Positions 1,007 through 54,901 of a stretch of 55,619 nucleotides of DNA are shown here, one piece after another; the first letter of the stretch is position 1, and every line of letters starts with the position of its first letter. The stretch is from a virus. Under the pieces are notes generated by a model that saw nothing but the letters and a program-made list of their open reading frames with translations, had not been told where the DNA came from and did not search any database. A program made the position numbers and the translations under genes. The stretch spans positions 1-55,619 of IMG/VR virus record IMGVR_UViG_3300042305_001248; one strand, 5' to 3'.

Positions 1007-1022
1007 GACGCCCTTCGGCGTC
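1007..1022 (-). promoter_or_regulatory. Leader stem-loop before the Shine-Dalgarno (family member)
   Basis: The stem GACGCC/GGCGTC (6 bp) with a GAAG loop ends about 8 nt before GGCAAGGAGAGC and ATG 989. It is one of nine similarly placed leader hairpins in the replication region. Confidence 0.6.
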
Positions 1023-1024
1023 GG

Positions 1025-1357
1025 TCACTCTTCGTCCGCTGCCAGCTCTCGGAGGACGCGACGACCTCGGCGAACCGCGTCGTCGAGCCTCTGCTCGTCG
1101 TCGTCCTCGACCGCGTCGAGGATCTCCGCGAGAGCCAGGACGGGATCCGTCTCAGGCTCCAGAGCGAGGCGGTAGTAGCCGAGGACGCGCACCGCTGCCT
1201 CCAGGGCCTTCGCCTCGCTGATGTCGAACGAGCGCACGCGCTCGTTCCGCGGCTCCTTGATCCGCTCTCGGAGGTGCTCCAGGCGGCGCTCCAGGTTCGC
1301 GATGTGCGCCCCGACGCGCTCGATCCTCGGGGCCGACTCTGCGGTGCTGACGGTCAT
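1025..1357 (-). CDS. Hypothetical helical protein
   Basis: The product is 110 aa, starting MTVSTAES at ATG 1357, which overlaps the upstream stop as ATGA. An upstream in-frame extension to 1483 is arginine-rich shadow sequence and was dropped. Residues 12-35 (ANLERRLEHLRERIKE) look like a coiled coil, and the remainder is charged and helical with an acidic stretch (EDDDEQ). No family was recognised. It sits in a run of small translationally coupled genes. Confidence 0.65.
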   Translation of the reverse strand: MTVSTAESAPRIERVGAHIANLERRLEHLRERIKEPRNERVRSFDISEAKALEAAVRVLGYYRLALEPETDPVLALAEILDAVEDDDEQRLDDAVRRGRRVLRELAADEE

Positions 1358-1683
1358 CGTCGCTCGTCCTCGTCTGCCCTCTCGGGCCTCGGCGCAGCGT
1401 AGCACGCTCGGAGCTGCTGGACCGCCTGGAAGAGCCCCGCGTAGGCGGGACCGACGCCCTCGATCGCTGCCGCAGCCGACCACGGCTCCTGGCTCTCCCG
1501 GTAGCGGGCGAACGCCTCGACGACCTCTCGGGCTCGGTCGAGCAGCTCCGCGTCCGCGAGGGTCATCGTCGAGCCGAAGCGACCGCTCCGGAGCAGCTCC
1601 GCGAGCGACTCGTGCGAGAGCGCGACCGTCAGCCGCGGACCCGCCGAGGTCTGCTCCGCACCCACCAGCGTAACGCGGATCAT
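1354..1683 (-). CDS. Hypothetical protein
   Basis: The product is 109 aa, starting MIRVTLVGAEQ at ATG 1683 in an ATGA overlap with the preceding gene. The N-terminus looks like a short beta segment, followed by helices and an acidic, arginine-rich C-terminus (PERADEDERR). The longer frame to 1818 is Arg/Gly-rich and overlaps a better gene, so it was rejected. The function is unknown. Confidence 0.65.
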   Translation of the reverse strand: MIRVTLVGAEQTSAGPRLTVALSHESLAELLRSGRFGSTMTLADAELLDRAREVVEAFARYRESQEPWSAAAAIEGVGPAYAGLFQAVQQLRACYAAPRPERADEDERR

Positions 1684-1925
1684 TCGCCGTGCTCCTCTCG
1701 CTCTTCGCCCGCGGCCTTCGCCGCTCGACGCAGAGCGGTCGCGAGCGCGAGCGCGTCCTCCGGATCGAGGTCCAGACGCTTCGTCACGCGGTCGCCGCCG
1801 TTCGGACCGACCTCCCAAAGCTCCAGGACGACCTCGACGAGCGCGAGCCGCGTCGAGGGCGCGACGGTGATCGACGCGCAGGCGTCCGAGTCGATGACCT
1901 CGACCAGCCTCCGAGCGACGCTCAC
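1680..1925 (-). CDS. Small hypothetical protein
   Basis: The product is 81 aa, starting with GTG 1925 in a GTGA overlap with the HNH gene. The predicted pattern is two or three beta strands (SITVAPSTRLALVEVVLELWEV) followed by a helix (PEDALALATALRRAAKA). The long in-frame extension to 2342 is Arg/Pro-rich and overlaps the HNH gene, so it is not credible. No family was recognised. Confidence 0.6.
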   Translation of the reverse strand: MSVARRLVEVIDSDACASITVAPSTRLALVEVVLELWEVGPNGGDRVTKRLDLDPEDALALATALRRAAKAAGEEREEHGE

Positions 1926-2227
1926 GACGACGCCTCCAGGGCTTCGATCAGGAGGTCCACCTGAGCGCGGAGGAACAGCTCGATCGTCTCCGAGCGAGGA
2001 AACGGAGAGCACGAGCCCTGCGAGTGCCATCGTTGGTGGCAGAGGCGGCAGAGCGGGACCGTCTGGTAGTCGTCGCATTTCTGCCCGACCCCTCGGCGAC
2101 CGAAGTGGTGCGCCTCGCTCGGAGGCGGCGCGTAGCAGACGCAGCACGCCTTCTCGCGCACCCTCCGGAGGTGCTCGGGCCTCTGCTCCGGGGCCTTCGG
2201 CTTCGGGACTGCTCGTAGATGACTCAC
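1922..2227 (-). CDS. Ref-like HNH/zinc nuclease domain protein
   Basis: The product is 101 aa. Cys28/Cys31, the SEAHH motif at 37-41, and PLCRLCHQRWH at 58-68 (Cys60, Cys63, His64, His68) form the treble-clef HNH pattern of phage recombination-enhancement (Ref-like) nucleases. In that family the central histidine cuts DNA and the Cys/His set binds zinc. It lies two genes downstream of RusA, which fits a role in recombination or branch processing. GTG 2227 overlaps the upstream stop as GTGA. A specific Ref assignment is tentative; an HNH endonuclease is safer. Confidence 0.75.
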   Translation of the reverse strand: MSHLRAVPKPKAPEQRPEHLRRVREKACCVCYAPPPSEAHHFGRRGVGQKCDDYQTVPLCRLCHQRWHSQGSCSPFPRSETIELFLRAQVDLLIEALEASS

Positions 2228-2535
2228 GCTTCCTCGTCCTCTCTGGCGTACTCGATCGCCTGATCGACCATCTCGTGATCCGTGCCTTCGGCGACATGCA
2301 TCCGGCGATGGACCGCCGTGATGCCCGCGGCTCGGGCCTCATCCATCACCGTCGCGAGGACCTCGACGTCGCGCTCCAGGTCGGCGTGGAACCGCTCCAG
2401 GGCCAGTTCCTGCTCCTCGGTCCTCGACGAGAAGAGGTCCCGGCCTCCGACTCGGGACAGGACGCGGAGGTAGATGTGTCTCGTGATTCTGTAGAGCGTC
2501 GCCTCGCGGCGGGCTCGGGGCGAGAGCGGCTGCAT
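2224..2535 (-). CDS. Hypothetical helical protein overlapping RusA
   Basis: The product is 103 aa, starting with ATG 2535 (MQPLSPRARREATL). It is charged and helical throughout (EEQELALERFHADLERDVEV, HEMVDQAIEYAREDEEA). Its first 197 nt lie inside the RusA reading frame in another phase, an unusually long overlap. An internal ATG at MDEARAAG would shorten the overlap, but the N-terminal sequence looks like genuine coding. No family was recognised. Confidence 0.6.
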   Translation of the reverse strand: MQPLSPRARREATLYRITRHIYLRVLSRVGGRDLFSSRTEEQELALERFHADLERDVEVLATVMDEARAAGITAVHRRMHVAEGTDHEMVDQAIEYAREDEEA

Positions 2536-2914
2536 GGAGTACCTCTACGGCTACCTCGACCCGCGGGCGAGCGCGGTCGAGCTGCGTCCTCGTGATCGCG
2601 AGCGACCATACCTGCGAGTCGTCGTCCCACGCGATGCCGTTCAGCGCATCGCTGACGGTCTTCGCGACGTTGTCGAGGTCGAAGCGCCTCGCGGAGCCGG
2701 GGACGATCAGCAGCTCCAGGAGGAAGCGCCCGCTCGTCCTCGGCCAGCCATGGTGCCCGTATCCCGCTCGACCGAGAGCCGCGATCGCTTCCCAGCGCAC
2801 GCGCTTCTCGTAGGAGCTGGTGGGCTCGGGCGTGTAGAATCTCCCGCCCGCGCCTCGACGAGCCCGCTGCTTCGGCTGCGGGTGCCCAGCGACGATCCAG
2901 GAGATCCTGCTCAC
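2339..2914 (-). CDS. rusA: RusA-like Holliday junction resolvase
   Basis: This is a Mg-dependent resolvase of four-way junctions, acting as a dimer. From GTG 2914 (GTGA overlap with the upstream stop) the product is about 191 aa. The RusA signature is complete: RFDLDN at 77-82 with Asp79/Asp81, Lys85, SDALNG at 88-93 with Asp89, then WDDDSQV near 96-102. The family usually ends around 120-150 aa. The last ~60 residues here are Pro/Arg/Gly-rich and overlap the next gene, so they may be a read-through tail or follow an indel. It fits with the Cas4-like nuclease, the Sak4-like ATPase and the SSB in a recombination set. Confidence 0.88.
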   Translation of the reverse strand: MSRISWIVAGHPQPKQRARRGAGGRFYTPEPTSSYEKRVRWEAIAALGRAGYGHHGWPRTSGRFLLELLIVPGSARRFDLDNVAKTVSDALNGIAWDDDSQVWSLAITRTQLDRARPRVEVAVEVLHAAALAPSPPRGDALQNHETHLPPRPVPSRRPGPLLVEDRGAGTGPGAVPRRPGARRRGPRDGDG

Positions 2915-3555
2915 CACTCGCGCTCCGGAGGCAGCCGAGCGTCGGCCGCGATCGCCTCGCCGAGAGAGACGGGACCGCTCTCGCGGCTCGGAGCCGCCCT
3001 GCGTCCCGAGCGCGGGAGGACGTCGAGCTTCGCGAGCCGCGCCGCGAACTCTCGGCGCTCGACGTAGCCCTGCGGGGCCGGGACGTTGCAGCCCCACTCG
3101 TCGGACAGGAACGCGAGGACCTCGTCGCGCAGGGCCTCGACGCGAGCGTCGCCGCCGACCGCGTCGAGGATGCGCTGGTAGTCGTCCACGACCGAGAGCA
3201 GGACGAGGACGCGCACCGCTCCCTCGCTCTCGGCGAGCCACACGGCGTAGCGCCAGCTCCCGAAGCTCGACGCGAGCTGCCGGTCCTCCTCGGAGGCGCG
3301 GTTGCGCCGCGCCCAGCGGAGCGCGGAGATCAGCTCGTCGTCGCTCGCCGGGAACTCGGGCGGGCGCTCGGGGACCTCGGGCCGACACCACGATCTGTGC
3401 ATCCCGAGGCGCACCGCCTCGGCGCTCGCGAAGCGGACCATCTGCGCCTCGTCGGGCTTGAGGTCGCCGTTCATCAGCCGCTGCATGTCGCGGATCAGCG
3501 CCTGCTCACGAGCCCTTGCCGGTGCGGAGGGCTCGAAGGATCCGGTTGTATTCAC
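2911..3555 (-). CDS. Hypothetical protein
   Basis: The product is 214 aa from GTG 3555. The start is supported by AAAGGAAGG about 10 nt upstream, even though it overlaps the previous gene by 50 nt. The sequence is mostly helical with two tryptophan-containing segments (SWCRP near 55, FGSWRYAVWLAE near 100) and an Arg/Pro-rich C-terminus. No family was recognised. It sits between the replisome-organiser-like gene and RusA, so a replication or recombination role is possible. Confidence 0.6.
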   Translation of the reverse strand: MNTTGSFEPSAPARAREQALIRDMQRLMNGDLKPDEAQMVRFASAEAVRLGMHRSWCRPEVPERPPEFPASDDELISALRWARRNRASEEDRQLASSFGSWRYAVWLAESEGAVRVLVLLSVVDDYQRILDAVGGDARVEALRDEVLAFLSDEWGCNVPAPQGYVERREFAARLAKLDVLPRSGRRAAPSRESGPVSLGEAIAADARLPPEREW

Positions 3556-4081
3556 TTGTGTTGCCTTCCTTTAGGTGTCGTTCTGCCTGCGCTCGAAGAG
3601 CGCGCTGTCGTTCGTCGGCCTGCTCGGCAGGCGTACTCGCGGGCGTCGGTCGCGCTCCTCCAGCGAGGGCCGCGAACCGCTCGACGCGGCTGCCGGTGCG
3701 ACAGATCATTTCGAGGTCATCGTAGACCGTGCCCGCGTCGTTCTGGCCCGAGTGGAACTCCGAGCCCAGGCAGCCGTCGATCGCGGCGCGGATCTCCGCC
3801 TCCGAGTAGCCCTGCCGCAGACGCGCCAGGACGCGAGACGCACGCTCTGGAGTCAGTCGCGCCTTCGGCTTCGAGGCCCTGCGCTGCCAGTAGTCGAAGA
3901 TCCGCTGGACGACCTCGCGATGCCCCTCGACGGGAGCCTCCGCGGGCTCGGAGACGAGCGCGAGCTGCGCGCCTCCCTGGAGGCGAGCGACGAAGGCCGA
4001 GAGGTCGGCGAGGACGTCCTCTCCGCGGGCGTACCGCGCCGCGATCGTGAGCAGCTCTGCGAGGGTCTCCGAGCGGTCCAT
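3506..4081 (-). CDS. Replisome-organiser-like protein (phage C-terminal replication domain)
   Basis: The product is 191 aa from ATG 4081. Residues 57-138 (REVVQRIFDYWQRR, then RLTPERASRVLARLRQGYSE, then YDDLEMICRTGSRVERF) match the layout of the conserved C-terminal domain of phage replication proteins of the TIGR02220/Phg_2220_C type. Those proteins act as origin binders or helicase loaders. The usual N-terminal winged-helix domain is not obvious. The region upstream to 4291 is Arg-rich and excluded. A leader hairpin at 4095-4110 lies just before the start. This is the closest thing to a replication initiator in the genome. Confidence 0.6.
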   Translation of the reverse strand: MDRSETLAELLTIAARYARGEDVLADLSAFVARLQGGAQLALVSEPAEAPVEGHREVVQRIFDYWQRRASKPKARLTPERASRVLARLRQGYSEAEIRAAIDGCLGSEFHSGQNDAGTVYDDLEMICRTGSRVERFAALAGGARPTPASTPAEQADERQRALRAQAERHLKEGNTSEYNRILRALRTGKGS

Positions 4082-4094
4082 GTGCCTCCGAGGG

Positions 4095-4110
4095 GCTCGT
4101 CTCTCCGAGC
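4095..4110 (-). promoter_or_regulatory. Leader stem-loop GCTCG-n6-CGAGC
   Basis: A 5-bp stem with a GAGAGA loop lies 13 nt before ATG 4081. The same loop with a swapped closing pair (CCTCG/CGAGG) recurs at 39376-39391 before the scaffold gene. Confidence 0.5.
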
Positions 4111-4146
4111 TGCCACGCCTAGCAGGACCGGCGTTCGTCGATGGGA

Positions 4147-4677
4147 TCAGAACGGGATGTCGTCGTCGTCGCGCTGCTGGCTCGTCCCGCGCTTCTGCGG
4201 CTTCGCGTCGCCCATCGCCTCGGCCTCCTGCTGGTCGAGCACCCAGGCGTCCATCGTCCGCCGCTCCGCGGGCGAGACCTGGGCGAAGCACCGCTCCAGG
4301 TCCGTGTTCGTGTAGCCGTTCGACTCGCGGACCGAGACCTTCGCCTTGAACGGCTTTCCGAGGAAGGCTCGACGCACCGCCTCGTCGCTGTTGAGGTCGA
4401 AGGGCCGATCCTGCCCGATCGCGGCGCAGTAGACCGAGAGGCGACCGGCGACACCCGCCTTCGAGACGTCGAGCGAGACGTTCGCGAAGAACGTCTGCCC
4501 GCTCCTCGGACCGTGGATCACCTCGTACTTGGCGCGGAGGTAGGCCGCGCCGCTCTTCGCCGTGCGGCGCTCGAACCAGCGCATCGCGAGGAGGTACTCG
4601 CCCGCGGGGATGCCGCCGCCGTCATCGCGGCGGTCGCCGCTTCCGTTGCCGTGCTTGCTGGGATCGAACAGGGACAT
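4147..4677 (-). CDS. ssDNA-binding (DUF669-like) protein
   Basis: The product is 176 aa. Residues 20-130 follow the DUF669 pattern (PAGEYLLAMRWFERRTAKSG, then a beta-rich stretch around GQTFFANVSLD). The C-terminus ends DDDDIPF, the acidic tip by which bacterial SSBs recruit partners. It probably coats recombination intermediates. It starts 3 nt after the Sak4-like ATPase gene, the usual pairing of annealase and SSB in phages. The SSB role is inferred from tail and context; the fold was not tested. Confidence 0.75.
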   Translation of the reverse strand: MSLFDPSKHGNGSGDRRDDGGGIPAGEYLLAMRWFERRTAKSGAAYLRAKYEVIHGPRSGQTFFANVSLDVSKAGVAGRLSVYCAAIGQDRPFDLNSDEAVRRAFLGKPFKAKVSVRESNGYTNTDLERCFAQVSPAERRTMDAWVLDQQEAEAMGDAKPQKRGTSQQRDDDDIPF

Positions 4678-4680
4678 GGA

Positions 4681-5541
4681 TCACTTGCCTTCCTGCGCCG
4701 TCGAGGCGCTCTTCTTCGGGGTGCTGGTGGGACTGGTGGAACCGGAGTGCGCCTCGCGGACGCGACGCACCCAGGAAGCGAAGTCGGGCTCCTCCAGATC
4801 GCGGAGCGGCCGGTAGGGCTTGAGCATGTAGTGCGAGGCCGCGACGGTGCGGACCTCGTAGGCGACCTGCCGCTGCCCGTCCTCGCCGCGGTCCTCGATG
4901 CGGCGCGAGGTGATGCCCACCACGTTGACGCAGCTCGCGAGGAACGAGGGGAGCGCCCGCATCGGGAGCGCGGGCTGGACGACGCGGCTCGCCTCGTCGC
5001 CCTCGCCGACGACGCGATCGTCCTGGAGCGAGAGGAAAACCACGTGCGTCGGGACGTCGCGGAAGGCGCGGATCAGCTTCTCGCTCCGGTCGCGCAGCGC
5101 GGCCCAATGCCGCTCGGTCCAGCGTTCCAGCCCGTCCTTCGCCTTCTCGGGAGGGGCCTCGCGGCGGACCTCGTTCTCCACCAGCTCGCAGGCGTCGGTC
5201 AGCGAGTCGATCACGACCGTCTCGGGCCACGCGCCCTCGTAGACGGTCGCGCTCTCGGAGCCGCGCTTCGCGGTGATCCGGAACGGCTGCGTGCGCGGCC
5301 CGTGGAGGGCCCGCACGACGTCGCGGTAGTCCTCCAGCGTCTCCATGTAGAGCGTCGGCGGGAGCGGCACGCCGCGGCGCACGGAGGCGCTGCGGACGGT
5401 CGCGAGACCCTGCCGCTCCGAGAGGAGGATCAGCGGCTTCGGGGCGCTGACGCCGATGTCCGTCTTTCCGGTTCCGGGTGGGCCGTAGATCGCGGCCTTG
5501 AGATAGCTCTCCGAGTCCGTGTCCGAGTCGATGCGCTTCAC
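4681..5541 (-). CDS. Sak4-like RecA-fold ATPase (AAA_24 type)
   Basis: The product is 286 aa from GTG 5541. Walker A is GPPGTGKT at 20-27 and Walker B is VVID at 109-112 (TVVIDSLTD). The arrangement matches the phage nucleotide-binding/AAA_24 proteins that include Sak4 single-strand-annealing recombinases. The neighbouring SSB-like and Cas4-like nuclease genes support recombination. The C-terminus is Ser/Thr/Lys-rich and probably disordered. It is preceded by a 7-bp leader hairpin and a candidate promoter (5585-5615). An alternative is a helicase-loader ATPase. Confidence 0.75.
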   Translation of the reverse strand: MKRIDSDTDSESYLKAAIYGPPGTGKTDIGVSAPKPLILLSERQGLATVRSASVRRGVPLPPTLYMETLEDYRDVVRALHGPRTQPFRITAKRGSESATVYEGAWPETVVIDSLTDACELVENEVRREAPPEKAKDGLERWTERHWAALRDRSEKLIRAFRDVPTHVVFLSLQDDRVVGEGDEASRVVQPALPMRALPSFLASCVNVVGITSRRIEDRGEDGQRQVAYEVRTVAASHYMLKPYRPLRDLEEPDFASWVRRVREAHSGSTSPTSTPKKSASTAQEGK

Positions 5542-5557
5542 GTTGTCTCTCCTTGCT

Positions 5558-5574
5558 GGTCGGCCTCGCCGACC
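5558..5574 (-). promoter_or_regulatory. Leader stem-loop before the Shine-Dalgarno (7-bp stem)
   Basis: The stem GGTCGGC/GCCGACC with a GAG loop is followed directly by AGCAAGGAGAG and GTG 5541. The stem sequence differs from the GCCGC/GCGGC members but stays fully paired, which argues for a selected RNA structure. Confidence 0.65.
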
Positions 5575-5584
5575 TTGGGCTGCG

Positions 5585-5615
5585 CCCTCGCCGAGTCTAC
5601 CACGACCGGCGAGGG
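5585..5615 (-). promoter_or_regulatory. Candidate promoter inside an inverted repeat
   Basis: An extended -10 TGGTAGACT (-10 hexamer at 5599-5594) lies between perfect 9-bp arms CCCTCGCCG (5585-5593) and CGGCGAGGG (5607-5615). The -35 at 16 nt spacing is poor (CTCGCT). It may be a repressor-controlled promoter for the ATPase/SSB genes. The inverted repeat is visible; promoter function is inferred. Confidence 0.4.
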
Positions 5616-5625
5616 AGCGAGCCGA

Positions 5626-5868
5626 TCATCTATCGATCGAGCGCCGCCACGCCTCGGCGTAGCTGACTCGGACTGCGCGGTCGTACTGACGCGCGAGCGA
5701 GGGTCCGAGGCGCTCCGGGACGAGCCCGTGCAGCCTCCAGGCGACCTCGGCCGGGGAAAGCTCCAGGACGTCCGCGTCGGCGTCCTGGAGGGCCTCCAGG
5801 GAGCAGCGCGACCGCTCCTCGCGGCAGAGCTGCTCCCCCAGGGCTCGGGCGACGGCGAGCCTCATCAC
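5626..5868 (-). CDS. Small hypothetical protein
   Basis: The product is 80 aa, starting GTG-ATG at 5868/5865 and overlapping the upstream stop. It is helical and charged; residues 35-75 (SPAEVAWRLHG, then DRAVRVSYAEAWRR) resemble the tail of the 174-aa protein at 6885-7409 (DEVLRAYAAAWREA). That may indicate a shared short helical motif. No family was recognised. Confidence 0.55.
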   Translation of the reverse strand: MMRLAVARALGEQLCREERSRCSLEALQDADADVLELSPAEVAWRLHGLVPERLGPSLARQYDRAVRVSYAEAWRRSIDR

Positions 5869-6794
5869 TCGCCCAGGATCGCGAGCCGCAGGGCGTCGCG
5901 GGCCTGCCCGATGGACGCGATCAGCTCGTCCCGCTTCGCCCCGAGGACGTCGGCGTAGGTCTCGACCTGGGCCGCGAGCTGCTCGTACCGCTCGCGGCGG
6001 ATCCCGATCGAGGCGTCGAGCTGCGCCTGCGTCTGCGCGTCCTCCGAGCCCGCCTCGGCCCGAGTCTTCGCCGCGAAGACCTCGACCTCGCGCCGCAGCG
6101 TGTCGAGCCGCGCCGAGAACGCCGTCGTCGCCGCCCTCGCGGCCTGCGCGAGGTGCTGGTGCGAGCCGGTCACCTGCCAGACCGAGAACTCGCTCTCGCC
6201 CTGCTCGCCCACCCAGCTCGCGAGCGTCTGGAGCTGCGCGAGCTTCTCTGCGGGGACGAAGTAGACGCCGCCCGCCTCGCCGCGCAGGTTCGTCGCGCAG
6301 AGGAGCGAGTCGGTACCCTTACCGTGCATCGCCCGCGAGAGGCACGCCGAGAGGTCCTCGGTGCCCGCGTAGGTCAGGATCTCCCCATACGCCTCCGCGA
6401 CCGCGAGGAGCGTCCCGTCGAGCTGATCCTCCAGCTCCAGAGCGCCGGTAGCCTTGCCGACCGCGATCCGGACCCGCTGGTCGTAGCGCACCGTTGCCGC
6501 GGTCTCGTCCTTCGTGCGGTCCGAGACCGCGTAGGTGACGCGCTCGGGCGTCTCGGAGACCTTGTCGAAGACGATCCCCGGCTTGCCGCGCCTGACGCGC
6601 TCGCACGCCCGCGTGAGGCACGCCGCGTAGCTCGGGTCGCGGGGCACCGCGTCGCCGAGCCCCATCGACTTGAACGCGGCGCGGAGCCCGTCGCGGGCGA
6701 CGAAGACGTCGCGAAGGGACCACATCGCGAGCGCGCCGACGATGTGCTCGCCATGTCCGCGTAGGACGGTCTGGATCTCCTGAGTCGGGGTCAT
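5865..6794 (-). CDS. Hypothetical protein with C-terminal coiled coil
   Basis: The product is 309 aa from ATG 6794. The N-terminal ~195 residues look globular (RDVFVARDGLRAAFKSMGLG near 30, GVYFVPAEKLAQLQTLASWV near 180). Residues 205-305 are a long charged coiled coil. It resembles uncharacterised phage proteins of the DUF6744 kind, but that assignment is from memory and weak. Its leader carries the GCCGC/GCGGC hairpin and AGCAAGGAGAG. No enzymatic motif was seen. Confidence 0.6.
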   Translation of the reverse strand: MTPTQEIQTVLRGHGEHIVGALAMWSLRDVFVARDGLRAAFKSMGLGDAVPRDPSYAACLTRACERVRRGKPGIVFDKVSETPERVTYAVSDRTKDETAATVRYDQRVRIAVGKATGALELEDQLDGTLLAVAEAYGEILTYAGTEDLSACLSRAMHGKGTDSLLCATNLRGEAGGVYFVPAEKLAQLQTLASWVGEQGESEFSVWQVTGSHQHLAQAARAATTAFSARLDTLRREVEVFAAKTRAEAGSEDAQTQAQLDASIGIRRERYEQLAAQVETYADVLGAKRDELIASIGQARDALRLAILGE

Positions 6795-6811
6795 TCTGCT
6801 CTCTCCTTGCT

Positions 6812-6827
6812 GCCGCCCTATCGCGGC
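6812..6827 (-). promoter_or_regulatory. Leader stem-loop GCCGC-n6-GCGGC
   Basis: A 5-bp stem is followed by AGCAAGGAGAGAGC and ATG 6794. It is a member of the leader-hairpin family. Confidence 0.6.
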
Positions 6828-6884
6828 GAAGAGCGCGCCGAGGTCGCGAGCCTCGGTGCCGGCTGTCCGGTCGCGCTGGGGGCG

Positions 6885-7409
6885 TCAGTCGGCGTCGGCG
6901 GCGTCGTCGTCGTCGGCCGCGACGGCGTCGGCCGCGACGGCCTCGCGCCACGCGGCGGCATAGGCGCGCAGAACCTCGTCGCGCCGCACCCCGTAGCGGA
7001 CGAGGTGCGCCGCTCCGATGCGCTCCGCGACCTCCTCAATCGCGGCGTAGTCCCAGCCGCTCCCGTCGCCCGCCGAGGGGTCGTCCAGCACCTCGGGCGT
7101 GCAGTCGCCCGATGTGCGGTCGGCCGCGACCATGCGCTCGGCGATCCAGCGGATCGCGTGCTCGTCGGCCTCGTCGGCCTCGCCCTCGTCCTCGCCCTCG
7201 TCCTCGCCGTCGCCCTCGGCGACCGGCTCGACGATCAGGTCGCCGCGAAGCGCCTCGACGGTGGAGCCGAGCGCCTCGGCCGCGTCCCGCGAGGAGCGAT
7301 AGCCCGCGGCGCGGTCCATCGCCTCGACGGCGTCGTCAGGAGTCTCGCCCCAATAGAGTCCGAGGCTCAGGCCCGAGGTGCGGTTCGCGATGCGGTAATA
7401 GATGGTCAT
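6885..7409 (-). CDS. Acidic hypothetical protein, first gene after promoter C
   Basis: The product is 174 aa from ATG 7409. The N-terminal ~45 residues (YYRIANRTSGLSLGLYWGET, then DDAVEAMDRAAGY) form a compact unit of a type seen in small phage and bacterial proteins that is not assigned a function. A Gly/Glu/Asp linker (DGEDEGEDEGEADEADE, ~67-83) and an acidic tail (DDDDAADAD) follow. Very low pI is expected, so a DNA-mimic or inhibitor role is conceivable but unproven. Confidence 0.6.
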   Translation of the reverse strand: MTIYYRIANRTSGLSLGLYWGETPDDAVEAMDRAAGYRSSRDAAEALGSTVEALRGDLIVEPVAEGDGEDEGEDEGEADEADEHAIRWIAERMVAADRTSGDCTPEVLDDPSAGDGSGWDYAAIEEVAERIGAAHLVRYGVRRDEVLRAYAAAWREAVAADAVAADDDDAADAD

Positions 7410-7429
7410 CTGCGTCTCTCCTTGCTGCT

Positions 7430-7444
7430 GCCGCCCTGTGCGGC
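7430..7444 (-). promoter_or_regulatory. Leader stem-loop GCCGC-n5-GCGGC
   Basis: The 5-bp stem with ACAGG loop is followed by AGCAGCAAGGAGAG and ATG 7409. It lies downstream of promoter C in the same leader. Confidence 0.6.
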
Positions 7445-7458
7445 GCGTCGATGGGATT

Positions 7459-7486
7459 ATCTTAGGACGCTTTTAAGCGTTGTCCA
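7459..7486 (-). promoter_or_regulatory. Promoter C with palindromic operator
   Basis: The -35 is TGGACA (7486-7481) and the -10 is TAAGAT (7464-7459), separated by 16 nt. The spacer contains the perfect palindrome ACGCTTTTAAGCGT (7467-7480). The region upstream is unusually AT-rich (GTAAAATACTTCG), like an UP element. The layout is the same as promoters A and B, so a shared regulator is likely. Confidence 0.75.
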
Positions 7487-7523
7487 GTCTTTCGACGAAG
7501 TATTTTACAACCTCGCGAGATTG

Positions 7524-7742
7524 CTACGGAATCCGCCGCTCTTTTCTCTCCTCCGCCGCCTTTCGACGCTCGATCTCAGCCCGATACCGACGGAGGGCTC
7601 GACGGGCCCGCGCCAGCTCGTAGCGGCGCATCGGAGCGCCCTCGGGCTCCCTCCTCCGCTCGCAGGGGTCCGAGGCTCCGGGCCAGTCGCGACCCATCCC
7701 GCAGGCGCTACAGCGCCCCGAGGAGGCCCATCGGTGGCTCAC
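7524..7742 (-). CDS. Small basic zinc-finger-like protein
   Basis: The product is 72 aa from GTG 7742 (GTGA overlap with the methyltransferase stop). Cys11/Cys14 and Cys27 (CSACG...DPC) suggest a small metal-binding knuckle. The C-terminal half is an Arg/Lys/Glu-rich helix (ELARARRALRRYRAEIERR) that could bind nucleic acid. It ends just before the promoter C intergenic gap. The long extension to 8216 is a shadow of the methyltransferase. Confidence 0.55.
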   Translation of the reverse strand: MSHRWASSGRCSACGMGRDWPGASDPCERRREPEGAPMRRYELARARRALRRYRAEIERRKAAEERKERRIP

Positions 7743-8479
7743 GGCTCCTCGGGCCAGGGCAGGGCGAGCGTGCCGCGCCTCGGGGCCGCAGGCAGGTCGC
7801 GCAGCCGCTCGCGCGCCAGCTCGACGTGTGTCTCGTCCAGGTCGCCGCCGATCCATCGGCGGCCGAGGAGCTTTGCCGCCAGGAGCGTGGTCCCGGCGCC
7901 GCAGCACGGATCGCATACCAGATCGCCGGGGCGGGTGTAGTCCTCGACGAGACGCTCCATGAGCCACAGTGGCTTTCCGCCGATGACCCCAGAACGCCCC
8001 TGCTTGTTGCCTCGCCACCCGTACTCCGGCGGGACCACGTACGCTCCGGGCAGCGCCCCCCATTGCTGGGCGGCACGCGTGCGCGGCCGAGCCGCCACGG
8101 CCCAGACCGACCACTGCGACGGGCCATCGCCAGACAGCCGAACGCGTGATCCTGGCTCCACGCACGCGAGCGGGGCAAAGGTGTATCTCTCGGCCGCGGC
8201 TAACGATGCCTCCCACGCCTTCGCAAGCACATGGTCAGTTAGCGACACGATCCACCCGCGAGTTAGCGGGGCCCAGGTGTAAACGAACTCCGCCACATCG
8301 GCCGCAGACCAGGACGCGTATACCAACGAGCCGCGCCCAACTTCCTCCATGTCGCGATACGCCGAGTGCGTGCGCTCGCTGTACGGCGCATCGACGATCA
8401 GCGTGTCCACATGCCCCACCGTCTCGCGGACGAGCTGGGCGAGGTCGCGCCAATGCAGGTGACCGACCGTCCCGATCAC
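7739..8479 (-). CDS. DNA N6-adenine/N4-cytosine methyltransferase (beta class)
   Basis: The product is 246 aa from GTG 8479 (GTGA overlap). Catalytic motif IV is DAPYS at 30-34, a D-A-P-Y variant of D/N-P-P-Y. The AdoMet motif I is CDPCCGAGTT at 189-198, followed by GRRWIGGDLDE. Motif IV preceding motif I defines the beta permutation. It modifies adenine-N6 or cytosine-N4 in DNA. No cognate restriction enzyme is adjacent, so self-protection against host restriction is the likely role. The specificity is unknown. Confidence 0.85.
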   Translation of the reverse strand: MIGTVGHLHWRDLAQLVRETVGHVDTLIVDAPYSERTHSAYRDMEEVGRGSLVYASWSAADVAEFVYTWAPLTRGWIVSLTDHVLAKAWEASLAAAERYTFAPLACVEPGSRVRLSGDGPSQWSVWAVAARPRTRAAQQWGALPGAYVVPPEYGWRGNKQGRSGVIGGKPLWLMERLVEDYTRPGDLVCDPCCGAGTTLLAAKLLGRRWIGGDLDETHVELARERLRDLPAAPRRGTLALPWPEEP

Positions 8480-8862
8480 TCGTCGCCCTCGGCGAAAAGC
8501 GAGAGCTGGTGGATGTTCTCCATCGCCTCGCGGAGCCGCGTCTCGGCCGCGCTGACGTCCTCCTTCGCGCTCTTGATCGCGTCGGCGCGAGCCTGCTTCG
8601 CCTCCTCCAGCGTCTGCCACGCATCCTCGATCCGGTGGAGCTTCGCCAGGGCTCGGGCAGGCTCGCCGACCGGGATCCCCTCCTCCATCGAGGCGCGGAG
8701 GCCTGCGAGCGCGACCGCCATGAATCCGGCGTGCTCCTTTCGCAGCTCCTGGAGCTGCTCCTTCGTCGCCTCCCACGCGAGGAAGCGGCGGCTGATCTGC
8801 TGCTCGCGCTCGGTCGGGAGCGCCTCCTGTCCGGTCATCGTCGTCGGTGCCTTCTTCGTCAT
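8476..8862 (-). CDS. Coiled-coil protein with C-terminal sliding-clamp motif
   Basis: The product is 128 aa from ATG 8862. Residues 15-115 are helical and charged (EATKEQLQELRKEHAGF, ARADAIKSAKEDVSAAETRL). The C-terminus carries QLSLF at 119-123, a match to the bacterial beta-clamp-binding pentapeptide QL[S/D]LF, exposed five residues from the end. It may tether a recombination or replication factor to the host clamp. It sits between the Cas4-like nuclease and a methyltransferase. Apart from this motif the family is unknown. Confidence 0.65.
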   Translation of the reverse strand: MTKKAPTTMTGQEALPTEREQQISRRFLAWEATKEQLQELRKEHAGFMAVALAGLRASMEEGIPVGEPARALAKLHRIEDAWQTLEEAKQARADAIKSAKEDVSAAETRLREAMENIHQLSLFAEGDE

Positions 8863-8872
8863 TGTCGTCTCC

Positions 8873-10057
8873 TCAGAATGGGGGCTCGGGTGCGGTCATC
8901 GCCGCGGTGATCTCCTCGTGCGTCTCGACCGCGACGCGGAACGACTCGCGCAGCTCGGGCGCGGACGGATCGAGGCAGACGCTCCGGTAGACGCAGGGCA
9001 TCGACCACGCGCTCGTGCAATTGCCGGGGTTCCTGGTCACGAGCCCGCCGTCGAGACGCGCCTCCCGCATCCGAGAGCCGTCGAGGAACGCCTCCCTCCG
9101 CCAGCGATCCAGCTCGGCATCGCTGCGGTAGAACTCCCGCCGCGAGAGGAACGTGTCGCCCTTCGCGATGAGCCTCGCGAGGAGGTCAGCCTGGGCCTCC
9201 GTGCGCTGGTAGCCTCGCTCCTCCTGCTGCTCCAGAGCGCGGGCGTAGATGCTCGGGAGCGTGTCGATCGCCGAGACCGAGACCATGCCCCGCTGCGTGA
9301 TCTCCGGGGTCCGCGGAGCCCGCTTGCGGAGGACGTTGTACGCGATCCTCCCGGTCGGGACCTCGCCGCGCTCGATACGCGCCCCGAGGTCGCGCAGGCT
9401 CGGAGGCACCGAGAGAAGCGAGAGGATCCGCCCCTGCCGGATGTACTCGCGCACGGCCCATAGATAGCCCGCCATCTGCGGGTCCATCTCGACGCGCCGA
9501 TCGATGGTCGAGACCTCCGCGCTCGTTGTCTTGTGATCGACCACGACGAGGTCCTGCGCCTCGGTGTCGTAGGCGATCAGGTCGATCACCCCGGCAAGCT
9601 GGAGGTGCGCGATCCGCCGCCCCATCGAGTCGATCAGCGGCGTCTGGAACGGGACCTCGACCCCGAGCGGGACGAGCGTCCGGAGGTCGCGCTCGTGCGT
9701 CTGCCAGTAGTGGCGGATCATCCAGAGCGCGGTCTCGAACGCCTTCGCTCCCTCCTCCTCGGACTGCTCCGAGGACGGCTCCCACGCCTCGCGGTAGCGC
9801 CTCGTCGCGCCCTCCGCGGCGTCGAGGACCTCGGGCAGCGCGGCCTCGCTGGCTCGCATCCGAGCCGCAGCGATCGCGAGATAGCCCGCGGCGAGACCAG
9901 CGTGGATCGCCGACCCGAACGAGAGCGGCGGAGCGACTGTCTTCGGGCGCAGACGCTCGACGTAAGCGAACGACCACTTCTGGCCGCAGTCGCGGAACGT
10001 CTGCACCTCCGAGTTGCTGATCACGGTGAGCTGCGGCTTCGAGCGGCGCTGCTTCAC
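8873..10057 (-). CDS. Cas4/RecB-like PD-(D/E)XK nuclease
   Basis: The product is 394 aa from GTG 10057 (GTGA overlap). The nuclease core is Glu134, GVIDL with Asp159, then VVVDHKTT with Asp174/Lys176. Cys24 near the N-terminus (FRDCGQKW) plus Cys347, Cys355 and Cys361 near the C-terminus form the split four-cysteine pattern of the iron-sulfur cluster in AddB/Cas4-type nucleases. It probably resects DNA ends for the Sak4-like annealase. The upstream extension to 10180 is Arg-rich and excluded. Confidence 0.85.
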   Translation of the reverse strand: MKQRRSKPQLTVISNSEVQTFRDCGQKWSFAYVERLRPKTVAPPLSFGSAIHAGLAAGYLAIAAARMRASEAALPEVLDAAEGATRRYREAWEPSSEQSEEEGAKAFETALWMIRHYWQTHERDLRTLVPLGVEVPFQTPLIDSMGRRIAHLQLAGVIDLIAYDTEAQDLVVVDHKTTSAEVSTIDRRVEMDPQMAGYLWAVREYIRQGRILSLLSVPPSLRDLGARIERGEVPTGRIAYNVLRKRAPRTPEITQRGMVSVSAIDTLPSIYARALEQQEERGYQRTEAQADLLARLIAKGDTFLSRREFYRSDAELDRWRREAFLDGSRMREARLDGGLVTRNPGNCTSAWSMPCVYRSVCLDPSAPELRESFRVAVETHEEITAAMTAPEPPF

Positions 10058-10278
10058 GACGGCACCTCCGCGAGAGCCGCCGCGACGAGCCCGCCGAGGG
10101 TCTCGGCGCGGTACGTCTGGAGCGAGAGCCTGGGGAGCCCGTGTGCGGACCGCCGCTCGACGGTCGCCTCCGCGCACCACTCGCCCCGGTGGAGCCAGAC
10201 CCGGATCTGCGCTGGACCCCTCTCGCGGAGCTGGGCCTCCAGCTCGCGGACCGTCATGTCGTCGTATCGCTTCGTCAT
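10054..10278 (-). CDS. Small hypothetical protein
   Basis: The product is 74 aa from ATG 10278. It begins MTKRYDDMTVRELEAQLRER and continues with a beta-rich region including RVWLHRGEWCAEATVERR. It has its own leader hairpin (10294-10307) and Shine-Dalgarno (GAGAGGACGAG), and its stop overlaps the nuclease start. It could be a small partner of that nuclease, on position alone. Confidence 0.6.
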   Translation of the reverse strand: MTKRYDDMTVRELEAQLRERGPAQIRVWLHRGEWCAEATVERRSAHGLPRLSLQTYRAETLGGLVAAALAEVPS

Positions 10279-10293
10279 CGTCTCGTCCTCTCT

Positions 10294-10307
10294 GCGGCCT
10301 TCGCCGC
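10294..10307 (-). promoter_or_regulatory. Leader stem-loop GCGGC-GAAG-GCCGC
   Basis: The 5-bp stem has its arms swapped relative to the GCCGC/GCGGC members and a GAAG tetraloop. It lies 15 nt before ATG 10278 and immediately after the stop of the VWA gene. Confidence 0.6.
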
Positions 10308-11777
10308 TCACATCGAAAACACGCCGTCGAGCTTCGCGCTCGCGCCGTCCAGGTCTCCCGGCGCGAGCGCGATCGCCTGCGTCGCTCGGTCGCTGATCCA
10401 GGCCGGGACCGCGCTCGCGATCCCGACCGCGAAGAGCGCCGCGCCGTGCGCTCGGAGCCCGTCGAGCTGCCGGAGCTGCCCGTCGCGGTCGTGATCGACG
10501 CCGTCCGTGATCAGGACGACGTCGGCCCGAGCGAAGGCCCGCTGCTCCGCCGCGTCGCGGAGGAGCCGGTTCGCCTCGCCGAGCGCGCTCGCGATCGAGG
10601 TCCCGCCCCCGGAGAAGGACGAGACGCAGGCGAGGAGCGCGTCGAGGCCGACCGCCTTCGGCTGCGCGAAGCGATCGACGCTGGTCACCGCGCCGTCGAA
10701 ATGCACGACCGAGAAGGCGCGGTTCTGACGCGCCGCGACCTCCATCATCGCGAGCGCGACCGCCTTCGCCCACTCGTCGCGAGCGCCGCGCATCGAGCCG
10801 CTCTCGTCGAGGCAGAGGACGATCGGGCCCTCGGCGCGATGGTCCTGCCCGCGGAGCTGGTACTGGAGCGCCGACCGCTCCAGGAGGCGACGGTAGAGGA
10901 GCGCCTCCAGGTCCTCGTCGGCGAGGAGGACCGACTCGCTCGGGAGGAGCCGCCCGAGGTCGTCGCCAGCCTCGACGTCGCACAGCTCTTCGCGACCGTG
11001 CGCGGCCTTCGTGTTCTGCTTCTGGATCGCCTGCGCTCGGAGGCGACCGGCGAGCTTCGCGATCCTCCGCAGCCGCTCGTCGGAGCGGAGCCGCTGGACG
11101 ACCTCCGAGCGCGGACCCTGGATCCTCCCCGGCGAGCCCGCCTCGGAGCCGCAGCCGAGACCCGTCGCCGCCTCCTCCAGCTCCCCGAGCTGCGCGTCCG
11201 CCTTGGACGCAGCCGTCCGGAGCGCCCTGCGGACGCGGGAGACCGCCTCGCGGGCCCGCTGCGCTGCGGCCTCGTCCGCCGCCTCCGCGGCCTCTGCGCG
11301 GGCCTCCAGGCCGGGGAGACGGCCCGAGCGCGGGTTCGCCTCGCGGACCGACTCCGCGGCCTCTCGGGCCTGCTGCGCGTCCTCCTCGGGAGGCTGGACG
11401 ACCGGAGCGAGCGCGTCGAGCGCCTGCGCCGCCGCGAGCCCCGAGGCCCAAGCGTCGCCCTCGGCGCGAGCCTGGAGCGCCCGCCACTCGGGGAGGCTCT
11501 CCGCCTGCGAGAGCAGATCGCGGACCCACGCCGCGCCCTTCGGCTCGCCCTCGACGGGCTCGCAGCCGAGCCCGTAGAGCGACCCGTAGACCTCGCGGGC
11601 GAGCGAGCCCCAGGGCCCGCCGTGCGCCCCGAGGACGCGACCGAACTCGCCCTCCGCCTTCGCCTCGTCCACGGCGAGGGAGCGGACCCACCCGCCGACC
11701 GCCAGCGCAGCGTCCGCGCCCGTCTCTAGCGAGACCATCGCGGCCTCGCGGTTCGCCTGTCGCCTGTCCTGCTCCAT
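10308..11777 (-). CDS. VWA-domain protein (ViaA/CoxE-like), partner of the MoxR ATPase
   Basis: The product is 489 aa from ATG 11777, which has GAGGAGAG upstream; the frame continues to 11825 but that leader contains promoter B and a hairpin. The C-terminal 166 residues are a von Willebrand factor A domain with a complete metal-binding MIDAS: DESGS at 324-328, Thr393 (GGGT) and Asp425 (TDG). The first ~300 residues are helical and charged. The architecture (long helical N-terminus, C-terminal VWA) and the adjacent MoxR gene match the RavA-ViaA type of AAA+/VWA pair. The role in the phage is unknown. Confidence 0.8.
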   Translation of the reverse strand: MEQDRRQANREAAMVSLETGADAALAVGGWVRSLAVDEAKAEGEFGRVLGAHGGPWGSLAREVYGSLYGLGCEPVEGEPKGAAWVRDLLSQAESLPEWRALQARAEGDAWASGLAAAQALDALAPVVQPPEEDAQQAREAAESVREANPRSGRLPGLEARAEAAEAADEAAAQRAREAVSRVRRALRTAASKADAQLGELEEAATGLGCGSEAGSPGRIQGPRSEVVQRLRSDERLRRIAKLAGRLRAQAIQKQNTKAAHGREELCDVEAGDDLGRLLPSESVLLADEDLEALLYRRLLERSALQYQLRGQDHRAEGPIVLCLDESGSMRGARDEWAKAVALAMMEVAARQNRAFSVVHFDGAVTSVDRFAQPKAVGLDALLACVSSFSGGGTSIASALGEANRLLRDAAEQRAFARADVVLITDGVDHDRDGQLRQLDGLRAHGAALFAVGIASAVPAWISDRATQAIALAPGDLDGASAKLDGVFSM

Positions 11778-11792
11778 CGCTCTCTCCTCGCT

Positions 11793-11809
11793 GTCAGCCC
11801 TGCGCCGAC
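11793..11809 (-). promoter_or_regulatory. Leader stem-loop GTCGGC-n5-GCTGAC
   Basis: The 6-bp stem includes one G-U pair and a GCAGG loop identical to that at 13356-13370. It is followed by AGCGAGGAGAGAGC and ATG 11777. Confidence 0.6.
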
Positions 11810-11815
11810 GAGTGC

Positions 11816-11843
11816 ATCCTAGCACGCTTCCGAGCGTCGTCTA
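11816..11843 (-). promoter_or_regulatory. Promoter B with palindromic operator
   Basis: The -35 is TAGACG (11843-11838) and the -10 is TAGGAT (11821-11816) with upstream TGC, giving an extended -10. The 16-nt spacer contains ACGCT-n4-AGCGT (11824-11837). It lies between the MoxR and VWA genes, so the VWA gene can be transcribed independently. Confidence 0.7.
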
Positions 11844-11850
11844 CTTTTCG

Positions 11851-12978
11851 TCAGAGGTCCAGCATCCGAGCGACCGCTTCGCGCAGCTCCGCGGAGCGGG
11901 CCTCCAGCTCGCCGACGAGGGCCCCGATCTTCCTCGCGCTCGCGGGGCTCGCCTGCGCCTGGAGGGCGCGGAGCTTCGCGACGCCCTTCCCCAGCTCGCG
12001 TCGGGTCGAGGGAGCCTTCGCCTCGAAGGCGGGGTCCGTCGGGGGCGGGAGCTTCGCGATGACCTCAACGAGCCCGTCGAAGGCCCGCTGCGCGTCGGCC
12101 AGCTCTGCGGAGGCGAAGCGGGCGCAGGCAGCGGCGACCTTCGGGGCCTGCTCGGGCACGTTCCAGAGCACGCTCGCGAGGACCGCGAGGTGCTCGGGAG
12201 AGACCTCCGAGAGACCGTCGAGCCACGCAGCGGCGCGGAGGAGCGCCGCGCACTTCCTCCAGCGTCGATCCGAGGCGACGATGCCCTCGCGGGCCAGCTC
12301 GGAGCGGAGCTGCCAGAGCGCCGAGACGACCGCCTTCGGGAGCGCGACCTGGGCGACCTCGGCCCGAGCCGCCTCCCACTCGTCGAGCGTGATCGTCGCC
12401 GTCGAGCGGAGGCTCGTCGTGCCCGTGATGATCGCCTCGAACGAGTCGGGCGCGTGGACGTACTCGACCCAATGCCGCAGGAGGAAGCGGTCCCAAAGCG
12501 CTCCCAGCTCGGCCGACTCGGGCAGCTCGTTCGACGCGCCGACGCAAGTCAGGAGCGGGACCGCCTGCGGCGTCGGACCGTTGTGGAACGTCCGCTCGTT
12601 GATCACGGCGAGAAGCGCGTTGAGGACCGCGCTGTTCGCCTTGAAAATCTCGTCCAAGAACGCGATGTGCGCCTCCGGGAGCTTGCCCGTCGTGACGCGG
12701 GTGAAGCGGTCGGCCTTGAGGGCCGAGAGCGAGACCGGCCCGAACAGCTCCTCGGGCGTCGAGAACTTCGAGAGGAGCCACTCGAAGTGACTCGCGCCCT
12801 GGATCGCGCCCGCGAACGCTCGGGCAAGCTCGGACTTCGCGGTGCCCGGAGGGCCGAGGAGGAGGATGTGCTCGCGGGCGAGCGCCGCGATCAGGAGGGA
12901 GTCGATCTCGCGGTCGCGCTCGACGAACGCGGACTGGAGCGAGGAGCGGATAGACTGGATCTTCGAGAGCGTCGTCAT
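11851..12978 (-). CDS. MoxR/RavA-like AAA+ ATPase
   Basis: The product is 375 aa from ATG 12978. Walker A is GPPGTAKS at 42-49, Walker B is IAFLDE at 105-110, sensor 1 lies near GASNE (147-151), and Arg164 in WDRFLLR is the likely arginine finger. The GxAKSE variant and the FGPVSL segment are typical of the RavA branch of MoxR AAA+ chaperones. Host RavA proteins are longer (~500 aa); this one has a short C-terminal helical region ending in a coiled coil. Its substrate is unknown. It pairs with the VWA gene downstream. Confidence 0.85.
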   Translation of the reverse strand: MTTLSKIQSIRSSLQSAFVERDREIDSLLIAALAREHILLLGPPGTAKSELARAFAGAIQGASHFEWLLSKFSTPEELFGPVSLSALKADRFTRVTTGKLPEAHIAFLDEIFKANSAVLNALLAVINERTFHNGPTPQAVPLLTCVGASNELPESAELGALWDRFLLRHWVEYVHAPDSFEAIITGTTSLRSTATITLDEWEAARAEVAQVALPKAVVSALWQLRSELAREGIVASDRRWRKCAALLRAAAWLDGLSEVSPEHLAVLASVLWNVPEQAPKVAAACARFASAELADAQRAFDGLVEVIAKLPPPTDPAFEAKAPSTRRELGKGVAKLRALQAQASPASARKIGALVGELEARSAELREAVARMLDL

Positions 12979-12994
12979 GGTGCCTTCCCTTGCT

Positions 12995-13009
12995 GCCGCT
13001 TCGTGCGGC
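12995..13009 (-). promoter_or_regulatory. Leader stem-loop GCCGC-n5-GCGGC
   Basis: The 5-bp stem with ACGAA loop is followed by AGCAAGGGAAGG and ATG 12978. Confidence 0.6.
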
Positions 13010-13063
13010 GATGCGCCCTGCCGGTAGCGAGCCGGTCCCGATCCTCTCGGGGCGCTGCGGGGC

Positions 13064-13339
13064 TCAGGCAGCGAGCCCGCGAGCGAACCTCTTTGCCGCC
13101 GCGAGAGCAGCCCTCGGCGAGCCCGCCGCGGGGAAGGACGCGAGCACCTCGCCCTCGCTGCCGCAGACGTCGTAGCCGCCGACGATGTAGCGGCGCGACA
13201 TGCCCGACCAGAGCGTCTCGTGGATGACCTGGATCTCGCCGATCTCCTCGCCGTCGCGCTGCACCGAGATAGAGCCGCCGTTGCCGGGGCCCGCGCTGTC
13301 GATCCGTCCGAAGGTCACCTTGTTCTGCGTCGGGGTCAT
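13064..13339 (-). CDS. Small hypothetical protein, first gene of the left operon
   Basis: The product is 91 aa from ATG 13339. It has a beta-rich appearance (GGSISVQRDGEEIGEIQVIH, SRRYIVGGYDVCG) and a C-terminal helix. It is the promoter-proximal gene after promoter A, which in phages is often a regulator or early host-takeover protein. Nothing in the sequence proves that here. Confidence 0.6.
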   Translation of the reverse strand: MTPTQNKVTFGRIDSAGPGNGGSISVQRDGEEIGEIQVIHETLWSGMSRRYIVGGYDVCGSEGEVLASFPAAGSPRAALAAAKRFARGLAA

Positions 13340-13355
13340 CGTGCTCTCCTTGCTG

Positions 13356-13370
13356 CCGCCCTGCGCGGCG
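13356..13370 (-). promoter_or_regulatory. Leader stem-loop GCCGC-n5-GCGGC
   Basis: The 5-bp stem with GCAGG loop is followed by AGCAAGGAGAGC and ATG 13339. It is located between promoter A and the gene. Confidence 0.65.
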
Positions 13371-13381
13371 TCGATGGGGAG

Positions 13382-13409
13382 ACTCTACCACGCTTCGGAG
13401 CGTCGTCTA
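13382..13409 (-). promoter_or_regulatory. Promoter A with palindromic operator
   Basis: The -35 is TAGACG (13409-13404) and the extended -10 is TGGTAGAGT (hexamer at 13387-13382), with a 16-nt spacer. The spacer contains ACGCT-n4-AGCGT (13390-13403). The upstream side is A-rich (GACGAAAAAAAG), like an UP element. It probably drives the whole leftward replication operon. Confidence 0.72.
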
Positions 13410-13628: not shown

Positions 13629-13651
13629 GAGGTAGAGAAGAGGCAGAGAAG

Positions 13652-14170: not shown

Positions 14171-14185
14171 ACATGATCCTGCACT

Positions 14186-14201
14186 ACCAGCGATCGCTGG
14201 T
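14186..14201. promoter_or_regulatory. 16-bp perfect palindrome ACCAGCGATCGCTGGT
   Basis: An uninterrupted 16-bp palindrome lies in the short gap between the HNH and methyltransferase-like genes. It contains GCGATCGC and a central GATC. It may be a dimer-binding site, a protein target or a methylation hotspot. Confidence 0.5.
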
Positions 14202-14271
14202 CAAGCAAGCCTCCCTCCCCTCTGGGCGAAGGGAAGAAACAGGCTACGAGGTAGCCAGCGAGGACGAGATA

Positions 14272-54899: not shown

Positions 54900-54901
54900 G
54901 C

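Follow-up and report, generated by a model that had tools for sequence, protein, structure and literature searches.

Short hairpins adjoining the Shine-Dalgarno sequence in the early-gene leaders of a G+C-rich phage lineage

The window, as we call the whole 55,619-nucleotide stretch of DNA analyzed here (a 55.6-kb IMG/VR virus record, IMGVR_UViG_3300042305_001248), is 70% G+C and has nearly all of its genes on the minus strand. Its structural genes include those for a phage major head protein, a baseplate wedge and a tape measure protein, and its early region encodes a Sak4-like AAA_24 protein, a DUF669 protein, a PDDEXK nuclease, a DUF6744 protein, and MoxR and VWA proteins. Most of the early genes are preceded by a leader in which a short hairpin lies just upstream of the Shine-Dalgarno (SD) sequence, and this leader hairpin is the subject of the present analysis. 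Leaders are designated by the position of the start codon (Table 1).

The window was compared with the relatives L005 (6.2 kb; DUF6744 protein 80% identical to that of the window), G006 (19 kb, from the same metagenome as L005; head protein 96%) and G001 (58.4 kb; head protein 75%, MoxR 54%); G006 and L005 are possibly one phage. A near-identity DNA search with the window matched no named phage. By capsid, Streptomyces phage Kromp (35%) and Komagataeibacter phages phiKX1/2 (30%) come closest among named phages; they are too distant for comparison of leaders and give only weak covariance-model matches. Genome collections searched with capsid and DUF6744 alignments yielded no host or prophage.

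Hairpins are common at 70% G+C—an unrestricted scan at every ATG and GTG finds 84 on the coding strand and 61.5 in shuffled sequence, little useful excess—and the test against chance was therefore limited to called leaders. Genes were called by pooled codon usage with a home-made caller, and its calls of small ones may be wrong. The leaders taken from the window and its relatives had an SD and a spacer of at least 25 nucleotides (nt); the best hairpin ending no more than 8 nt from the SD was scored, and the identical search was repeated on 400 dinucleotide shuffles of each segment. At a threshold score of at least 15, hairpins are present in 20 of the 47 leaders, with 3.4 expected (shuffle maximum 11). 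The excess is strongest in the early region, where 16 of 25 leaders have a hairpin adjoining the SD that comprises about five G-C pairs or more, with 1.9 expected (shuffle maximum 7; z 10.8). Late-region leaders give 4 of 22 with 1.5 expected, and starts with a short spacer or none show a weaker excess (11 of 66; 4.5 expected). Shuffled leaders were the control by which an earlier note on this DNA had proposed that a selected structure could be refuted, and the hairpin excess is not an artefact of G+C content. Many single leaders are unremarkable against their own shuffles (6794, 12978 and 13339, for example; Table 1), so the evidence is collective.

The stems are 5–7 bp and G+C-rich, the loops of 3–6 nt share no letters, and the mean pairing probability of the leader hairpins is 0.94. 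A G-C pair closes the helix in the aligned leaders, AG directly follows the stem in all 20 hairpin leaders (22 of 114 other leaders), the 3′ end of the hairpin is usually 3–4 nt from the SD, and the 3′ arm lies 16.1±1.6 nt (range 13–20) from the start codon. What follows the stem is an AG-purine SD sequence with no U-run. This constancy of geometry with variable letters points to a mechanical role. The earlier note had listed hairpins at nine starts, of which eight (989, 5541, 6794, 7409, 10278, 11777, 12978 and 13339) are retained; the ninth, at 4081, was rejected as a family member on its spacing, its flank and its shuffle p value. Two to three leaders are to be added: 4677, where the hairpin sits inside the end of the upstream gene, the plus-strand 14272, and the weak 1357. 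The sequence AGCAAGGAGAG, named in the note as the most frequent one after the hairpin, is exact at four leaders (5541, 6794, 7409 and 13339), has one mismatch at 989 and 11777 and two at 12978, and is replaced at 10278 by AGAGAGGACGAG. The start at 14272 is an in-frame start of a gene of no known function that, together with a gene giving a weak HNH endonuclease match (below the Pfam cut-off), makes up a small divergent plus-strand module in the otherwise minus-strand genome; its hairpin belongs to the same family.

Table 1. Positions of leader hairpins, orthologous leaders, promoters and other features; coordinates are those of the window unless a relative is named.
Feature	Position	Strand	Details
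Hairpin GACGCC gaag GGCGTC	1007..1022	-	Leader of 59-aa gene, start 989; spacer 35 nt; no promoter
Weak hairpin GCCC gaga GGGC	near start 1357		Covariance model 18.7 bits
Candidate hairpin GCTCG gagaga CGAGC	4095..4110	-	Start 4081; 5 nt before GGAGG; shuffle p 0.147
Hairpin GCGCC tcgac GGCGC, then AGG AAGG	4695..4709	-	Leader of 4677 (DUF669 gene)
Hairpin GGTCGGC gag GCCGACC	5558..5574	-	Leader of 5541 (Sak4-like AAA_24 gene); shuffle p 0.002
Hairpin GCCGC gatagg GCGGC	6812..6827	-	Leader of 6794 (DUF6744 gene); shuffle p 0.22
Hairpin GCCGC acagg GCGGC	7430..7444	-	Leader of 7409; shuffle p 0.045
Hairpin GCGGC gaag GCCGC	10294..10307	-	Leader of 10278 (74-aa gene); spacer 29 nt; shuffle p 0.035
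Hairpin GTCGGC gcagg GCTGAC	11793..11809	-	Leader of 11777 (VWA gene); one G.U
Hairpin GCCGC acgaa GCGGC	12995..13009	-	Leader of 12978 (MoxR ATPase gene); shuffle p 0.087
Hairpin GCCGC gcagg GCGGC	13355..13369	-	Leader of 13339; shuffle p 0.07
Hairpin GGCTAC gag GTAGCC	14242..14256	+	Before start 14272; 19.8 bits, outside training set
Ortholog leader GGCGCC ctct GGCGCC	G006 17806		59-aa gene (989); window GACGCC/GGCGTC
Ortholog leader GCCCG atcac CGGGC	L005 5344		Sak4 (5541); window GGTCGGC/GCCGACC
Ortholog leader GCCTCC tcg GGAGGC	L005 716		DUF6744 (6794); window GCCGC/GCGGC
Ortholog leader GCCCG atgga CGGGC	G001 3529		DUF6744 (6794); window GCCGC/GCGGC
Ortholog leader GCGCC accga GGCGC	G001 5782		VWA (11777); window GTCGGC/GCTGAC
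Ortholog leader GCGCC acgca GGCGC	G001 4538		MoxR (12978); window GCCGC/GCGGC
Predicted promoter TGGACA-16 nt-TAAGAT	7459..7486	-	Leader 7409; spacer palindrome ACGCTTAAAAGCGT
Predicted promoter TAGACG-16 nt-TAGGAT	11816..11843	-	Palindrome ACGCTCGGAAGCGT
Predicted promoter TAGACG-16 nt-TAGAGT	13382..13409	-	Palindrome ACGCTCCGAAGCGT
Palindrome ACGCTNNNNAGCGT	7463-7480, 11820-11837, 13386-13403	-	Between -35 and -10
Palindrome ACGCTNNNNAGCGT	L005 52-69	-	Between -35 and -10
Palindrome ACGCTNNNNAGCGT	L005 1761-1778	+	Between -35 and -10
Possible Y-shaped (three-way junction) element	6832..6877	-	Upstream of 6794 hairpin; second loop CTCGCGA; drawn by comparison
Y-shaped element	13013..13055	-	Upstream of 12978 hairpin; loop CTCGCTA; in minimum-energy fold
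Y-shaped elements	L005 about 625-675, 1655-1705, 2340-2375		Intergenic, directly after stop codons
MoxR (bpMoxR) and VWA genes	10308-12978	-	Early region
Divergent module	about 13634-14940	+	Includes start 14272
tRNA-Arg (gcg anticodon), predicted	41996-42075	-	Within structural gene region
Methyltransferase/ParB-like fusion	53376-54929	-	
Long, nearly perfect stem	G001 approx. 5684-5735	+	After MoxR gene; z -4.3; no U-run
Two long tandem hairpins	G001 approx. 10553-10622	+	Before 10657; z -6.3; no U-run

A covariance model (R1) was built from 15 leaders. In the underlying alignment 100% of cells are paired, four of the five pairs have two-sided changes, and the covariation score is 0.644, compared with 0.110 when shuffled and at most 0.057 when slid. 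Because the rows had been picked for pairing, these changes describe the family and are no proof of it; the shuffle comparison is the unbiased test. Outside its training set the model finds the window leaders 4677 (30.6 bits, E 3e-7), 989 (24.8) and 5541 (20.3), in addition to 14272, and, in the relatives, L005 4868 (41 bits, but almost a copy of one training leader) and G001 16155 (22.6). The model includes the SD and ATG, and weak matches at gene starts therefore mean little.

The earlier note had drawn its argument, that pairing is kept while sequence changes, from copies within the window. Since those are leaders of different genes, such compensatory changes would be weak evidence alone, and it is the comparison of orthologs, paired by protein comparison, that carries the claim. 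Five genes (989, 5541, 6794, 11777 and 12978) keep the hairpin with changed letters between the window and L005/G006 or G001 (Table 1). The early leaders thus exceed shuffles put through the same search, the model recovers leaders on which it was not trained, and orthologs pair with other letters; as the earlier note had held, the leader hairpin is very probably a selected RNA structure.

Unrelated phages mostly lack it. Among 32 loci of other viral contigs (30 with a MoxR relative and two from contig G002), 16 of 220 leaders have a hairpin with 6.7 expected, which is near chance, and a single locus, L010, supplies four of the 16 (from nine leaders). Across 34 further viral loci totalling 509 kb (three pattern matches and 31 loci that carry a MoxR relative), the sole strong model match clearly at a gene start is also in L010 (11708, 29.1 bits); the next, in L053 (24 bits), was itself derived from a pattern search.

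The leader hairpins occur in two settings: some follow a sigma70-like promoter, and others lie between operon genes, often after a larger structure. Promoter-type leaders are 7409, 11777 and 13339 in the window, three in L005 and four in G001 (read by eye), and the hairpin of this type is about 0–13 nt from the transcript start predicted from the promoter-like site. The best reading is that early genes carry a promoter–hairpin–SD cassette. Each of the three exact copies in the window of the palindrome found between -35 and -10 is at a hairpin leader; the palindrome is likely the operator of a regulator. In all of IMG/VR the strict promoter pattern matches, the window apart, L005 only, and the exact cassette pattern was matched three times, each time in an unrelated contig and, in our judgement, by chance.

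Some of the larger structures may be Y-shaped elements, located directly behind stop codons, in which an outer stem encloses two hairpins; the stems differ, and the 7-nt loops, closed by G-C, follow YTNRSKA (CTCGCGA, TTCGCGA, CTTACGA, CTAAGGA, CTCGCTA and TTCGCTA). The minimum-energy fold of the copy upstream of 6794 differs from the Y shape. Hairpins of the YTNRSKA type on the coding strands of the window and L005 are intergenic in seven of seven cases, the pattern having been defined from them, and folding z-scores of the elements are modest (-1.9 to 0.1).

We give roughly even odds (a probability of about 0.5) to the reading that the leader hairpin acts in cis in early genes, capping the ribosome-binding site on its 5′ side without a dedicated protein. 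With a promoter just upstream, a hairpin so close to the predicted 5′ end would hinder 5′-end-dependent decay of the RppH/RNase E or RNase J type; between genes it would likewise protect a downstream message released by cleavage. The fixed seat would let a 30S subunit bind directly against the hairpin, so that hairpin and ribosome protect the message jointly, as in the Bacillus subtilis aprE leader. Long downstream stretches are stabilized when a hairpin, a ribosome-binding site or a bound protein occupies the 5′ end or its vicinity, the cited cases being aprE and the Escherichia coli ompA and papA leaders (PMC3997798). The 5′ stem-loops of these leaders resemble the present ones in being short hairpins near a predicted 5′ end with the ribosome-binding site just downstream. 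In the aprE/ompA type, too, the helix outweighs its letters, a likeness that here comes from comparison among leaders and orthologs. The differences are that the phage hairpins recur at many early genes of one lineage, lie flush with the SD and stand also before internal genes, and that their effect on stability is putative. Variation of both loop and stem letters fits a mechanical role, and the promoter-proximal copies would fit a stabilizing 5′ hairpin with its ribosome-binding site. Of the three functions suggested in the earlier note, mRNA stabilizer is still the best; overall the hairpin probably stabilizes the message or serves translation start, and is less likely to be a regulator of a novel type.

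Several observations weigh against protection from the 5′ side. It is from the SD, and not from the 5′ end, that the hairpin keeps a constant distance, and the leaders 989, 6794, 10278 and 12978 have it without a visible promoter, where a pure 5′-end protector would not need it; a role in initiation accounts better for the fixed SD distance and for the internal copies. Hairpins are absent from the G001 leaders orthologous to 5541 (Sak4), 4677 (DUF669) and 1357, and the element is thus dispensable over evolutionary time. The initiation region is also predicted to become only slightly more open, to an extent that depends on the context folded (0.63 versus 0.62; other folding contexts p 0.003, 0.37 and 0.005).

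A translation-initiation element, with the hairpin acting on the ribosome itself, is a tentative alternative that we hold to be rather unlikely. The hairpin could stack on an extended SD/anti-SD helix, for which a 16S tail with UCU at its end might pair with AGnAAGG; it could be a barrier that keeps the 30S subunit on the start; or it could keep the start region free of pairing with G+C-rich RNA from upstream. Such a role is favored by the narrow range of distances to SD and start codon, by the AG that directly follows the stem, by the occurrence at internal genes and by a slight increase in accessibility in two of the three contexts, and a "physical barrier" effect of a bulky 5′ untranslated region has been described (PMC11087576). 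In that same study, however, single hairpins alone gave no translation enhancement (PMC11087576). The E. coli standby model (As = 15+P+D-H; PMC3936740), with P 3, H about 7.5 and D 0–13, gives by hand calculation a penalty of about 4.4 to 0 kcal/mol, neutral to inhibitory, and in G001 an extra nucleotide separates AG from AAGG, so that the 16S register is lost. Because the accessibility gains are small and inconsistent, the standby model is neutral to negative, and a single hairpin was ineffective in the barrier study, we favor 5′-side protection.

It is less likely again that the hairpin serves as the operator of an RNA-binding regulator, from phage or host, that reads helix and AG and switches the early genes jointly. 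The hairpins are mainly restricted to early genes, their G-C closing pair and AG are nearly constant, they lie at the edge of the ribosome site, and phages offer precedents, among them the hairpin operator of T4 gp43 (PMC3014915). In known phage operators, however, the letters of the loop are conserved (UAAC/CAAC/UAAA for gp43), and a gp43-type operator was rejected here on loop conservation; no candidate regulator was identified. The earlier note's suggestion of a binding site for a phage translational regulator has accordingly gained no positive support, with only the closing pair and AG kept. A more speculative idea, to which we give slightly less credence, is that the hairpin–AG–SD unit marks early genes throughout the lineage and is recognized by a phage factor or by some peculiar feature of the host ribosome, forming one post-transcriptional switch between leadered early and leaderless late messages. 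A DNA-level or chance origin (protein-binding inverted repeats, decayed terminators or ordinary G+C-rich palindromes) would suit the abundance of hairpins near ATG and GTG at this composition, but is very improbable given that the enrichment survives composition-preserving shuffles, that the letters differ among copies within one genome, unlike a DNA operator, that no U-run follows the stems, and that the single G.U pair in the 11777 stem is standard on the mRNA strand only.

A processing site (also among the earlier suggestions), a terminator and a sequence-specific regulator are unlikely, since stem and loop sequences vary, the stems fall short of the roughly two helical turns of duplex that RNase III needs, and an intrinsic terminator would have a U-run. 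Rfam 15, searched with the window at gathering scores, gave 0 matches. T4 has small stable intercistronic CUUCGG hairpins with a conserved UUCG loop; the present hairpins are alike in being small and between phage genes, and differ in having no conserved loop. T4 also has RNA hairpins at initiation regions, lying between SD and AUG at genes 38 and 25 and hiding SD or AUG at e, soc, 49 and I-TevI (PMC3014915), whereas here the hairpin is upstream of the SD and leaves it free. In Cluster K mycobacteriophages, repeated elements accompany the translation starts of non-structural genes, and inverted repeats precede the SD. These elements are SAS, whose 13-bp sequence is conserved, and ESAS, a 17-bp conserved repeat, for which the authors found little support for RNA pairing (PMC3203893). 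The elements described here differ in having 5–7 bp stems of variable letters with pairing kept, and identity with SAS was rejected, as the 13-bp GGGATAGGAGCCC occurs at chance in the window (two matches with two mismatches; 2.03 expected).

The type of hairpin is already known, and what is new is its systematic, covarying use across a phage lineage. Small hairpins near starts in G+C-rich genomes are usually dismissed as composition noise; because this set survives shuffles and keeps its pairing between orthologs, the lineage appears to use a hairpin flush with the SD as a standard early-gene part. Its natural variants are ready for testing how mRNA life and initiation respond to a helix that borders the ribosome site.

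Some late genes seem to use leaderless messages, and early genes hairpin leaders. Leaderless-type starts are at 23361, 36480, 41317 and 50386 (minus strand) in the window, at 23103, 34847, 38942, 44587 and 50370 in G001, and at six positions in G002. TANNNT lies 5–8 nt before the start codon at 17 SD-less starts, often as GTGNTANNNT, and is found at 0.6% of internal ATG/GTG.

The MoxR AAA ATPase gene adjoins that of the VWA-domain protein, an arrangement kept in G001, and MoxR relatives were found at about 40 IMG/VR loci. Very strong intergenic hairpins, with folding z-scores of -4.3 and -6.3, occur in G001, and the window also encodes a DNA methyltransferase domain fused to a ParB-like domain and a predicted tRNA-Arg (Table 1).

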